Assembly: GCA_021821195.1 (NCBI GenBank)
Contig: JAKACT010000001.1
Coordinates: 558,001-622,000 of the forward strand
Direction of reading: 5' to 3'
Length of the DNA: 64,000 nucleotides
DNA from: Pseudomonadota bacterium
Lineage (GTDB): Bacteria; Pseudomonadota; Gammaproteobacteria; Xanthomonadales; Xanthomonadaceae
In this document: in pieces, positions 2,851 to 45,757 of the stretch
How the letters are laid out: each line of letters begins with the position of its first letter
How positions within the stretch are numbered: position 1 is the first letter of the stretch
Notes under the pieces: generated by a model
Told to the model about the DNA's origin: nothing
What the model saw: only the letters and a program-made list of their open reading frames with translations
Databases searched by the model: none
Translations under genes and position numbers: made by a program

Positions 2851-2997
2851 CGCAGAGATGCCCTTGATGCCCTCGAGCGCGACTATCAGGAAATGATCGG
2901 CAGCGGCCTTTTCGAAGAAGAACCGCCTTCATTCGATGAGCTGATGAATCGGTGCCGCGAGATCGAGCTGGAGGCCAACGGGCAGATTGCGGGCTGA
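2851..2997 (+). pseudogene. Gene tail without a clear start, in frame with the upstream stop
   Basis: Directly after the TGA at 2848-2850 the same frame stays open for 48 codons to TGA at 2995-2997. It reads like a conserved C-terminus (ALERDYQEMIGSGLF, then PPSFDELMNRCREIELEANG). The only internal ATG (2895) would give 34 residues. The pattern, a DYxxM motif followed by a short acidic helix ending near EIN/EAN, reminded me of AbiEii-type nucleotidyltransferase tails, but this is a weak resemblance. It is more likely a remnant than an active gene. Confidence 0.3.
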
Positions 2998-3123
2998 CGG
3001 GAGACGGAATTGGCTACCTGCGGCCACGCTCGCGTTAGAAGGCCGCAACATGGCCGCAAGACCTCGCTCCTGGCTCAAGGCTAAAGCGGTGACCACTGCC
3101 CCGGGGCTAGTGGTTCGCCAGCA

Positions 3124-4422
3124 CTAGGCTTCACCGCGTGCGGGAATGCGATCGGTCGGGAACGCCTCCGCACCCACCCACCAGACGAGATAGCGTCCCG
3201 GTGCGGATGCCTCAAGGAAGGCGACAACACGCTCTTTCGCCGCCTTGTACTCGTCATCATTCCGGCCATTCACCTCGATGTAGAACGGCAGGCCGCAATC
3301 GAGCAGCAAGAAATCGTGGAGGTAGGGATAGCCTTTCGCGAGGAACATCGGCTTCTCGAAGTGACGCCCCGCCCCGACCAGATAGTCCGCCATCCTCGCT
3401 TCCGCACGCGACGCCACCGGGATGCCTTGGGCCGTCGTGACGACGAGACGCACGCGTTCGGCAATCAAGGTGTCATCCTCACCCGGGATCACATGCATGA
3501 TCGCCATCAGACGAAACCGGCTATCCGGCATGCCGATCGCGAGTTCGGACAGGTCAAGGCTCGGGAAGTCGCAGTAGCGCCTCGCATACCGCCACTGCCC
3601 GCGATGCACCTCTAGCGTGAACGCTGTGCCACGGAAACTCAGACGCAGCAACCCACGGCCGGCGCTCTCCACCGCAATGACCTCACCGATCGCACCGGCA
3701 GGAAGGGTGTCGCCGTTCGGCGCACGGCCGATCAAAGCGCGCAAGCATGCATCTGGCGAGATGTCATCTGCGCCAAGAACCAGCGCGCGCCGATCGGACG
3801 ACTTGCCATCTGCAATGGCCGGCGCAACGGCGTTGGCATATCGCTTCAGCAAATCCTCCGCTAGTGGCGCGGAACCGGGATGGTAGATGTTGGTTCCTGC
3901 CACCACGGCCACGTGGAGCAACTTCGACAGCATAGGTGAGCGCTTGTGCGACTTGGACTTCTTGTGGGACTTCGCCTTCTTCGGAGCGGCAGTCGTCTTC
4001 CTTGGCGGACGGCGACTCACGGGGGGCGGGTTATTGAGATCGTGCAACCAGTCGGGGTCGAAAAACTCTGGCGCAAGAATGGAGATCTTCGTATTCGTCA
4101 CGTCGCCATGGTGAGCGCACAGTGGCGAGTGTTTCGATTTCGTACCAGGGGCGCAGCAGATCTGATTGAACCCGTTGACACGGCGAACATACAAACCCTG
4201 CATGCCTGCGGGAAGACAGGGGCACCGGAAGTCCCTTTCTCGGGGATAGGCAAGCTTTTCATTGATGGCTTCCGCGAGGCGGTTGCTGCGCAATGGAATC
4301 AGTTCCTTCCGAAGCAGACTAGTGCCGTCGTACGTAAGGAAAACGACATGATCCAGATGCGGCTCGTCCAGCGTTGGGATCTGGCGGGAAGCGCGAGGAG
4401 ATTCGTCACGGGAAATCGGCAT
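3124..4422 (-). CDS. DUF1173-family mobile-element protein
   Basis: A 432-residue protein resembling DUF1173 proteins of plasmids and integrative elements. Near residue 65 it has CPCLPAGMQGLYVRR followed by a second cysteine pair and a CAHHGD motif, a likely metal-binding N-terminal module. A lysine-rich linker (KKAKSHKKSKSHKR) follows, then a large C-terminal domain. I start it at 4422 (MPISRDESP), which has GGAG upstream; the frame stays open to 4563 but that extra part is arginine-rich and unlike a protein start. It faces the KfrA gene (divergent, sharing the GCATTAC-repeat region). Function unknown; the association with conjugative elements is family knowledge. Confidence 0.6.
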   Translation of the reverse strand: MPISRDESPRASRQIPTLDEPHLDHVVFLTYDGTSLLRKELIPLRSNRLAEAINEKLAYPRERDFRCPCLPAGMQGLYVRRVNGFNQICCAPGTKSKHSPLCAHHGDVTNTKISILAPEFFDPDWLHDLNNPPPVSRRPPRKTTAAPKKAKSHKKSKSHKRSPMLSKLLHVAVVAGTNIYHPGSAPLAEDLLKRYANAVAPAIADGKSSDRRALVLGADDISPDACLRALIGRAPNGDTLPAGAIGEVIAVESAGRGLLRLSFRGTAFTLEVHRGQWRYARRYCDFPSLDLSELAIGMPDSRFRLMAIMHVIPGEDDTLIAERVRLVVTTAQGIPVASRAEARMADYLVGAGRHFEKPMFLAKGYPYLHDFLLLDCGLPFYIEVNGRNDDEYKAAKERVVAFLEASAPGRYLVWWVGAEAFPTDRIPARGEA

Positions 4423-43566: not shown

Positions 43567-44361
43567 ATGAGCAGCCACGACGCCAGCGCCATCCACCCCA
43601 CCGCCGTGATCGACCCGCGCGCGCGGATCGGCGCGGGCGTGCAGATTGGTGCCTATGCGGTGATCGGCGCCGAGGTGGAGGTGGGCGACAACACCCGCAT
43701 CGGCCCGCACTGCCTGATCGAGGGCCCGACCCGGATCGGCCGCGACAACGTGTTCCACGGCCACGCCGCGATCGGCGGCGAGCCGCAGGACAAGAAGTAC
43801 CGCGGCGAGCGGGTGGCGCTGGAGATCGGCGACGGCAATGCGATCCGCGAATTCGTCACCATCAACCGCGGCACCGGCGACGGCGGCGGCCTGACCCGCA
43901 TCGGCAGCCGCAACTGGATCCTGGCCTACAGTCATATCGCCCACGACTGCCTCGTCGGCGACGATTGCGTGTTCTCCAACAATGCCACGCTGGCCGGGCA
44001 TGTCACCGTCGGCAACCACGTGATCCTGAGCGGCTTCTCCGGCGTGCACCAGTTCTGCCGGATCGGCGACCACGCGTTCATCGGCATGGGGGCGTTCGTC
44101 AACGGCGATGTGCCGCCGTATCTGATGGTGGCGCAGGAAAAGTACGCGCGGCCGCGCGGCATCAACGCGGAGGGGCTGAAGCGACGCGGCTTCGACGCCA
44201 GCCGCATCGCCGCGATCAAGCGCGCCTACCGGGCCCTGTACATGGGCGAAGCGAAGCTGGACGAAGCCAAGCTCGAGCTGGCGGAGATCGCCGCGGGCAG
44301 CGACGACGTGCGCGCCTTCCTCGATTTCATCGACGCGGGCGAGCGGCCGCTGCTGCGGTGA
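43567..44361 (+). CDS. lpxA: UDP-N-acetylglucosamine O-acyltransferase
   Basis: A 264-residue first enzyme of lipid A synthesis. The left-handed beta-helix repeats begin at once ([20 protein letters not shown]) and include the active-site part [14 protein letters not shown] and [15 protein letters not shown] (catalytic His), [12 protein letters not shown] and [11 protein letters not shown]; the C-terminal helical part follows [12 protein letters not shown]. Usual length. The gap to lpxB (256 bp) is unusual for this cluster and holds two long hairpins. Confidence 0.97.
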
Positions 44362-44375
44362 ATTTCGTCGGCCTT

Positions 44376-44456
44376 GTCGCGCGGGTGGCCGAGGGCTGTC
44401 CCAAGTCGCTCCCCGATACTCGCTTGGTTGGGACAGCCCTCGGCCACCCGCGCGAC
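44376..44456. repeat. Long perfect hairpin A in the lpxA-lpxB gap
   Basis: Two exactly complementary 29-nt arms (44,376-44,404 and 44,428-44,456) around a 23-nt loop (44,405-44,427), 15 bp after the lpxA stop. Its loop GTCGCTCCCCGATACTCGCTTGG matches that of hairpin B at 18 of 23 positions when B is read in reverse. It lacks a T-run, so a simple terminator is unlikely; a REP- or MITE-like element fits better. Confidence 0.9.
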
Positions 44457-44519
44457 CCGATTTCCTCGAATGTTGCAAGAACAAGCTTGGCCGCAATGCG
44501 CGACACAACCAGCGCCGTT

Positions 44520-44588
44520 GCGGGGGCTGGGGTGTGTCCCGACAAAGCGAATCACGTGGAGCGACTCGGGACACACCCCAGCCCCCGC
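44520..44588. repeat. Long perfect hairpin B in the lpxA-lpxB gap
   Basis: Two exactly complementary 23-nt arms (44,520-44,542 and 44,566-44,588) around a 23-nt loop (44,543-44,565). Reverse-complemented, the loop is GTCGCTCCACGTGATTCGCTTTG, closely like hairpin A, and the inner stems share TGTCCC-x-A; the outer stems differ. It ends 29 bp before the lpxB start, opposite in orientation to hairpin A. Confidence 0.9.
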
Positions 44589-44617
44589 GGCGGCGCGGCC
44601 CCGAAACGAGTTTGGCC

Positions 44618-45757
44618 ATGACCCGACGCATCGCCCTCTGCGCCGGCGAAACCTCCGGCGACCAGCTCGGCGCCGGACTGATCGAAGCGCTGCGCGAACG
44701 CTTCCCCGATGCCCGGTTCGCGGGGATCGGCGGCGATGCGATGCGCGCGGCGGGCATGGACACATGGTTCGATGCCAATGAGTTGGCGGTGATGGGACTG
44801 GCGGAAGTGCTGGCGCACCTGCCGCGCCTGTTGAAGCTGCGCAAGGCCTTCCGCCAGCGCGTGCTGGAGTGGAAACCCGACGTGTTCATCGGCATCGACG
44901 CACCGGACTTCAACCTCGGCGTCGAGCGCTGGCTGAAGCAGCGCGGCGTGCGCACCGTGCACGATGTCAGCCCATCGGTCTGGGCCTGGCGCGAGAACCG
45001 CGCGCGCAAGATCGGCGAGAGCGCCGACCGCGTGCTCTGCCTGTTCCCGATGGAGCCGCCGATCTACGCCCGGCACGGCGTGGATGCCGCCTTCATCGGC
45101 CATCCGCTGGCCGACGCCATTGCGTTGCAGCCCGATCGCGCCGGCGCACGCGCCGCGCTGGGCGAATCCGGCGATGCGCCGCTCCTGGCGCTGCTGCCCG
45201 GCAGCCGGCTGGGCGAGATCCGGCGCATGCTGCCCGACTTCGCCGAAGCCGCGCGCCGGCTTGCCGCGGAGGTCCCCGGCCTGCGCGTGCTGGTGCCGGC
45301 GGCAAACGCGCAGTGCCGTGCCGCCATCGACGCCATCCTCGGCGATGCGCCGATGTTCCGCGTCCTCGACGGACAGGCGCAGCGGATCATGATCGCCAGC
45401 GACGCGGTGCTGCTGGCGTCCGGCACCGCCGCGCTGGAGGCGATGCTGTGCAAGCGACCGATGGTGGTGGGCCACCGCATCGCGCCGCTGACCTACCGCA
45501 TCGTGCGGCTGTTCGGCATGCTCAAGTCCGCGCACGTCAGCCTGCCCAACGTGCTCGCCGGCGAGGAACTGATCCCCGAACTGCTGCAGGACGACTGCAC
45601 GCCAGGCAACCTGCACGCCGCGCTGCTGCGCTGGTTCCGCGACGACGATGCGGTGGCGACCCTGCAGCCGCGCTTCCTCGCCATCCACCAGACGCTGCGC
45701 CGCGATGCCTCCGCGCGCGCCGCCGACGCGGTGGCGCAGCTCCTGCGGCAGCCATGA
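44618..45757 (+). CDS. lpxB: Lipid-A-disaccharide synthase
   Basis: A 379-residue peripheral membrane glycosyltransferase that joins UDP-diacylglucosamine and lipid X. Family marks: [109 protein letters not shown] and [15 protein letters not shown] 44,618 is preceded by CGAAACGAG, a weak site. It overlaps rnhB by 4 bp. Confidence 0.97.

Follow-up and report, generated by a model that had tools for sequence, protein, structure and literature searches.

The two long palindromes between lpxA and lpxB of a Thermomonas-like genome belong to a dispersed family of hairpins in which the 23-nt loop is conserved and the stem, whose sequence is largely free, keeps its pairing. We put at about even odds (roughly 0.5) the reading that both are copies of a REP-like mobile palindrome whose loop strand would be recognised as a single-stranded hairpin by a trans-acting factor. 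At the level of sequence comparison, the family is shown to have a pairing constraint, strand specificity, independence of gene direction, inverted pairs, both orientations at orthologous sites, and mobility. The features that we discuss lie in a stretch of 64,000 nucleotides (the window) and are as follows.

lpxA, 43567..44361, plus strand: ORF with Pfam PF13720 and PF00132; its stop codon is 14 nt ahead of stem A
Hairpin A, 44376..44456, minus strand: perfect stem of 29 bp and 23-nt loop; match to model R1 at 44381-44451; DNA fold z of -11.3 on the loop strand
Loop of hairpin A, 44405..44427, minus strand: CCAAGCGAGTATCGGGGAGCGAC (as read on the minus strand)
Hairpin B, 44512..44596, plus strand: stem of 31 bp with two T.G pairs and 23-nt loop; match to model R1 at 44519-44589; also seen by folding
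Perfect core of hairpin B, 44520-44588, plus strand: stem of 23 bp and 23-nt loop
Loop of hairpin B, 44543..44565, plus strand: CAAAGCGAATCACGTGGAGCGAC
lpxB, 44618..45757, plus strand: Pfam PF02684; its ATG start is 21 nt past the extended stem B

Hairpins A and B and their family

A preliminary description of the window had reported two perfect long-stem hairpins with loops of equal length that match at 18 of 23 positions, and our results bear this out. The perfect stems measure 29 and 23 bp, DNA folding of the two hairpins gives z values of -8.7 to -13.4 with none of 200 shuffles as good, and the loops share 18/23 positions when read in a common orientation (A on the minus strand, B on the plus strand). 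The loop strand of A is antisense to lpxA and lpxB and that of B is sense; the two non-Watson-Crick pairs of B are T.G on its loop strand and A.C on the opposite strand in the folds. The start of lpxB is the ATG picked within a longer ORF (44534-45757), where the alignments of relatives begin at the first residue. As the same description had it, there is no T-run behind either hairpin (16 bases past each stem, both strands, by eye), so that neither has the GC stem followed by a T-run in the transcribed direction that marks an intrinsic terminator; the terminator scan itself admits loops of 3-8 only, a range that 23-nt hairpins fall outside.

The family loop has the consensus CMAAGCGARTNNCGKGGAGCGAC, and we searched for it with the pattern CCAAGCGA-N7-GGAGCGAC. 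The genome to which the window belongs holds 14 loops with no mismatch and two with one mismatch, i.e., 16 matches against one for a reversed control pattern; at up to two mismatches the numbers are 19 (three of them at two mismatches) against eight, and the covariance model finds 18. All 16 loops sit on stems of 24-31 bp that differ in sequence, some with mismatches. Within the window, the family model matches A and B only (E-values of 1.8e-19 and 6.4e-17), values that are not independent because both are among the 70 sequences used to build it. Further copies, on whose presence the preliminary description had staked its reading, are thus found both in the own genome (16 loops) and among its relatives, where 21 of 60 genomes, the own one included, contain the pattern: 20/25 in the genus, 1/11 among the others in the family and 0/24 in the order. 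With the covariance model, 21 of the 25 genomes of the genus are positive, and G003, G006, G014 and G020 give no match at its threshold.

Beyond these relatives, a pattern scan of named genomes returned at least 115 stretches, from Luteimonas, Lysobacter, Halioglobus, Pseudohaliea, Pandoraea, Burkholderiaceae and unplaced proteobacterial bins; the loops of this set were found by exact pattern, and their constancy at the fixed positions is partly by construction. The distribution is patchy across Luteimonas, Lysobacter, Halioglobus, Pseudohaliea, Pandoraea and other Gamma- and Betaproteobacteria, with up to 100 copies per genome. By model, the highest numbers are in Halioglobus G060 (100, from 150 candidates scored), Pseudohaliea rubra G069 (72), Halioglobus G061 (48), Luteimonas G064 (37), Lysobacter concretionis G066 (35), Luteimonas G065 (20) and G237 (14), followed by G444 (6), Pandoraea G067 (4), G071 and G440 (2 each) and G441 (1), and the model finds no copies in G438, G445 and G450. 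A class-wide search with model R1 under stricter filters was positive in only 3 of 369 genomes, the own one included, so the family is not universal. It does not look like a phage or plasmid element either: at the sensitivities used, an exact-pattern scan of IMG/VR and the phage records gave no match, and the plasmid records gave two partial matches of 19 bases only. One copy comes from a bin labelled Sumerlaeia (L249); since by eye it closely resembles those of the gammaproteobacterial bin MAG.332, this label may be a binning error.

Paired stems, the strand that folds and the structure of the loop

Alignment A1 and model R1 were built from 70 of the 103 loops in the Thermomonas set (with G029, a genome of another genus, among its sources), namely those with a stem score of at least 21, a length of at least 23, a position away from ends and a distinct inner stem. 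In these 70 hairpins 99.0% of 1680 cells are paired, a value favoured by the choice of hairpins for their long stems, as compared with 37-42% in slid-register controls, and 671 cells carry a double change against 191 in shuffles; the number of stem pairs with any double change (23/24) is not above that of the shuffles (22.3). Under a looser cut of 92 distinct hairpins of the Thermomonas set, 2298 of 2413 pairs are Watson-Crick, the others being 73 G.T, 12 A.C and 30 of other types. Most stems are about 23-36 bp long; in the bins MAG.332 and KLAP199 the accepted loop-proximal stem is only 7-16 bp and is followed by an internal loop. Among the copies at L175, L179, L187, L206 and L249, those of two MAGs have, in the stem under the family loop, a constant internal loop (CGCCCGGAGG.../...CCGCAAGGGCG).

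Between orthologous sites, 21.4 of the 23 loop positions are retained, a figure favoured by pattern-found loops and including members of two-hairpin sites, and the stems have a mean identity of 0.71. The stems change by compensation at these sites. One could also suppose that the palindromes are under no selection, that template-switch copying across the arms keeps them perfect and that their loops are alike only through recency, and the correction of palindromes is a known mutational process. The occurrence of both loop orientations and of an inverted hairpin pair at hslV-hslU does suggest recombination from arm to arm. We nevertheless regard this explanation as quite unlikely, given the difference in conservation between orthologous loops and stems and two further properties that it does not predict: a covariation within the loop, and an asymmetry between the two strands where it would have G.T and A.C equally frequent.

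This asymmetry is informative because a G-C or A-T pair hit by one transition becomes G.T on one of the strands and A.C on its complement, and the ratio of the two thus reveals which strand must stay folded. At a threshold of 0.8 we counted, on the loop strand, 145 distinct G.T events and 27 A.C events in 67 stem clusters (p 1e-20), with 39 clusters voting for G.T, none for A.C and 28 ties. The ratio is 89:25 at a threshold of 0.72 and 171:27 at 0.9 (85 clusters against 4, with 59 ties), and it leans the same way in the Thermomonas set (73:12), the named genomes of other genera (99:9), Pseudohaliea (25:3) and L. concretionis (18:3). These counts were made with equal penalties (an initial scoring of the Thermomonas set had penalised G.T more lightly), and hairpins with a stem score below 12 were excluded from them, from the counts by gene direction and from the tally of loop positions 9 and 15.

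The direction of the neighbouring genes makes no difference to this bias. According to a crude home-made ORF finder, 42 of 84 distinct hairpins lie in codirectional gaps, 13 are convergent, 28 are unplaced and one is divergent (likely a gene-calling error); in 21 of the codirectional hairpins the loop strand has the sense of both neighbouring genes (G.T:A.C of 14:4), and in the other 21 it is antisense (20:2). Since the bias is alike in both groups, the constraint sits on the hairpin's own folded loop strand, and not on the host mRNA. The suggestion in the preliminary description that the structures are selected as RNA holds in so far as the pairing of a single strand is constrained; that this strand is the one with the loop consensus, whichever way the genes run, speaks against an mRNA element. 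We therefore find it very doubtful that the hairpins serve as 3' elements of the upstream gene's mRNA (a stabiliser, a processing site or a terminator). Many copies do stand shortly behind a stop codon, in convergent or codirectional gaps, and palindromes of other types take up the lpxA-lpxB gap in some species, as such a role would have it; the wobble pairs, however, track the loop strand and not the transcript (20:2 when antisense), the codirectional hairpins divide 21 to 21 in loop orientation, and by eye A and B have no T-run behind them. Replication direction left no trace either: in two single-contig genomes, with the terminus assumed opposite dnaA, the loop strand showed no bias between leading and lagging template (4 to 5 in G016, 3 to 5 in G002).

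The loop itself is structured: its position 9 covaries with position 15. In 266 distinct hairpins, this combination is G/G in 145, A/T in 117 and something else in four (262/266 covarying), and the search pattern permitted all four R/K combinations. A Hoogsteen-type pair geometry is compatible with both G/G and A/T. In four copies of G237 the middle of the loop is lengthened and both of its ends are kept. The non-canonical loop, the 9/15 covariation and the tolerance of G.T would fit RNA equally well, and the main rival to a single-stranded DNA hairpin is a structured loop-strand RNA (from its own promoter, or as a transposon-derived or antisense transcript), whose loop would be bound by a protein or an RNA. 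We think this unlikely: half of the codirectional hairpins (21/42) are antisense to their operon and equally constrained, both orientations occur at the same site, no sigma-70-like promoter matches within 44300-44700 (a weak test), the flanks of orthologous hairpins look unconserved by eye, and there is no corresponding Rfam family. The mismatch pattern of the family has the merit that the folding strand can be told from sequence alone, as can the lack of any influence of the direction in which host genes are transcribed.

Genomic sites, flips and mobility

In the own genome, the hairpins adjoin core genes, often just 3' of them, at sites that include lpxA-lpxB, hslV-hslU, infC-rpmI, purF with a DUF455-like gene, adk-mpl, pabB-pabC and others (gene names were read from the sequence, except for lpxA and lpxB, which rest on Pfam). 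Among 25 genomes of the genus, the lpxA-lpxB gap carries the family loop in 15 and lacks it in 10; only part of the gap of G024 is on its contig. Erosion is visible at this site, with a decayed hairpin in G007, short or interrupted stems in G013 and G015, and an expanded loop in G023. Four genomes (G006, G017, G020 and G022) have other palindromes in the same place, without the family loop: those of G022 and G017 (L133, L135) have GGGATTGGGGATTCG-type stems with partly similar loops (ACGTGNA.TCCA), and that of G006 (L134) has a GAGCGCACCGCAGGGGCGCGA stem. These are possibly further variable-stem families. The hairpin at hslV-hslU is kept at the orthologous site in 10 genomes. Such survival at orthologous sites exceeds what a plain transposable element would need, which suggests a benefit to the host or repeated rewriting.

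Copies less than 350 nt apart are arranged as -+ in 58 cases, as +- in seven and in tandem in 11, and by eye the two members of the pairs in P. rubra, Halioglobus and Luteimonas have unlike stems. At loci with a single hairpin, both loop orientations occur at 8 of 15 orthologous loci, a count that leaves out loci with two-hairpin members (these had been included in an initial 145 "flipped" pairs). Stem identity is 0.66 in flipped pairs, 0.79 in unflipped pairs and 0.46 between unrelated hairpins; at six of the eight loci the best flipped pair reaches at least 0.78 (the 95th percentile of unrelated hairpins being 0.69), and at one of the eight, with G029, it is no better than unrelated hairpins. 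Some flips may reflect the loss of different members of old pairs. At hslV-hslU in G018, the order of the two hairpins looks by eye as if it had been inverted as a block. We rejected the idea that the loops are sites of double-stranded inversion, reasoning that inversion from loop to loop would unpair both stems.

The preliminary description's proposal of a mobile hairpin family gains support from the dispersed copies, from stems common to several copies within single genomes, and from a comparison of occupied and empty sites. In G071, a Burkholderiaceae bin, a copy with a 36-bp stem preserves the reading frame of a gene called UvrA-like on the basis of its sequence (ABC_tran in Pfam) and lies within an insert of 180 nt that is absent from the near relatives G450, G445 and G451; the same open frame of this gene holds a second copy in G071 and three copies in G444. 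The arms are absent from the empty sites of these three relatives (by eye), and an origin of the stem by inverted duplication of the insertion target was rejected. In Halioglobus HKST-UBA220, twin hairpins are part of a longer repeat with ends that match each other in inverted orientation, ..TTTTTCAACACGCTGC (in the copies of this one genome). In Pandoraea terrigena (L202, 6600-7530), two hairpins with the same stem flank about 740 nt that hold long inverted repeats.

In the mechanism that we favour, the conserved part would be the apical 23-nt loop and not the stem, and the working unit would be the strand carrying the loop consensus in its folded form; a stem of about 25 bp and of almost any sequence would suffice if paired, its role being to present the structured loop. 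The folded strand would be single-stranded DNA, either an extruded cruciform or a strand exposed by replication, and a trans-acting protein that reads the loop (an ssDNA-type nickase or transposase, acting as TnpA-REP, relaxases or Rep proteins do) would move, flip and re-copy the hairpins. Nicking and re-copying would also account for the flips and the homogenised arms. It is possible, and we offer it tentatively, that the family represents a new class of mobile ssDNA hairpins. Recognition would then depend on a single conserved element, a structured 23-nt DNA loop, with the stem left free, and a putative enzyme conserved in Gamma- and Betaproteobacteria would read the loop strand, mobilise the hairpins, turn them round and maintain the complementarity of their arms. 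If this were true, copies would persist at constant places in operons as their stem sequences are replaced.

Known palindromic elements and the search for a partner enzyme

Like REP, BIME and REPIN elements, the hairpins are dispersed, mostly extragenic palindromes that form inverted pairs (the 58 in -+ arrangement), often of unlike members; unlike REPs, they have stems mostly of 23-36 bp, a conserved 23-nt loop, a free stem, no tag and no RAYT alongside. REPs are described in PMC3733652 with stems of 5-13 bp, loops of 2-20 bp (GTAG) or 4-5 bp (CGTC) and a terminal tag, figures that the 16 stems of the own genome (24-31 bp, with 23-nt loops) do not fit. Strand-specific recognition of single-stranded DNA is described for TnpA-REP in PMC3733652 and PMC8266576; in the family, the one observation that bears on such binding is the G.T/A.C asymmetry. 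We saw no common GTAG or CGTC tag, and the feet of the stems differ between sites (by eye), in agreement with the preliminary description, which had noted the lack of the GTAG head of REPs. Known bacterial palindromic repeats keep the foot of the stem and the tag; this family does the reverse.

Several other systems share part of these properties. Integron attC sites fold one strand and have a variable stem with the pairing kept, as the family does; their boxes are conserved in the stem and their tip varies, and their R boxes, GTTRRRY/RYYYAAC, flank the stem, whereas our hairpins conserve the tip and have variable closing pairs (CAA/TTG, TCA/TGA, TTTTC/GAAAA, GCC/GGC), differing among families with no constant GTTRRRY (by eye). 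Rolling-circle origins of the geminivirus and circovirus type likewise place a conserved loop on a variable stem in a strand-specific manner; they are single origins with a Rep gene, unlike the 1 to 100 dispersed copies per genome seen here. Rickettsia palindromic elements are inserted in frame in coding genes, as are the copies in the UvrA-like gene of G071 and G444, but the family has another sequence and is mostly extragenic. In the hairpin-loop (minute) inversions of plastids, a loop between inverted arms flips in evolution, as the orientation of our loops does; the plastid loop is not known to form a conserved dispersed family, unlike ours. Finally, the inverted-repeat ends around twin hairpins recall bacterial MITEs in the Halioglobus HKST-UBA220 copies only, and none were noticed by eye around the Thermomonas copies.

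Rfam gave 20 matches for the window in E-value mode, none at its gathering score, and three matches for 18 loci in gathering mode, none over a hairpin. Two matches were noted on L242 of Lysobacter concretionis: one to the Vibrio RNA AS9 (RF02820) at the gathering limit (4043-4146), and an FMN riboswitch (2922-3097). A full-text search of 5.39 million papers gave no occurrence of six 18-letter loop strings, and word searches of titles and abstract beginnings found no description of this family. The family is thus apparently new to the literature and without an Rfam family.

The preliminary description had proposed to look for an associated transposase, a search that we carried out for Y1_Tnp (PF01797) genes only. 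At 37 Y1_Tnp loci (24 in the genus and 13 in hairpin-rich genomes), no family loop with up to four mismatches was found in about 1.5 kb on each side, where the contig allows; one locus (L152) has a five-mismatch loop match, without a stem. Three of 12 hairpin-bearing genomes, including that of Pseudohaliea rubra with its 72 copies, have no Y1_Tnp match at all. A RAYT partner was rejected, as no Y1_Tnp gene adjoins the hairpins and none of the 37 loci has the arrangement, known from REPs, of such a gene flanked by its repeats. An all-against-all comparison of nearby ORFs did not reveal, in the 25 largest clusters, a gene common to hairpin neighbourhoods across genera; as far as they could be read, and not every cluster was identified, these are frames over the repeats themselves and housekeeping genes. 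That the hairpins are ordinary REPs of an IS200/RAYT (TnpA-REP) system is thus highly improbable, despite their inverted pairs with unlike stems, their mostly extragenic position, their strand-specific folding and their many copies, in view of the missing GTAG or CGTC tag, the stem lengths (mostly 23-36 bp), the Y1_Tnp loci without a loop and the many copies of P. rubra without a Y1_Tnp gene. The family works like a REP, and because the tests for tag, stem length and transposase failed, it is not a REP member.

With these hairpins, it can be tested how REP-like repeats spread and are maintained where no transposase adjoins them, and the many-copy genomes of Pseudohaliea rubra, Luteimonas salinisoli and Lysobacter concretionis offer material in which to find the factor that would read the loop. 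As for the Y1_Tnp genes of the genus, those at L151, L155, L157, L158, L162, L165 and L168 stand near palindromes with A+T ends (AAAACAGGGGTCAGAGTCGACTTTT and AAAAGGGGACGGAGGGAATTAA types), which are probably these genes' own REP-like partners.
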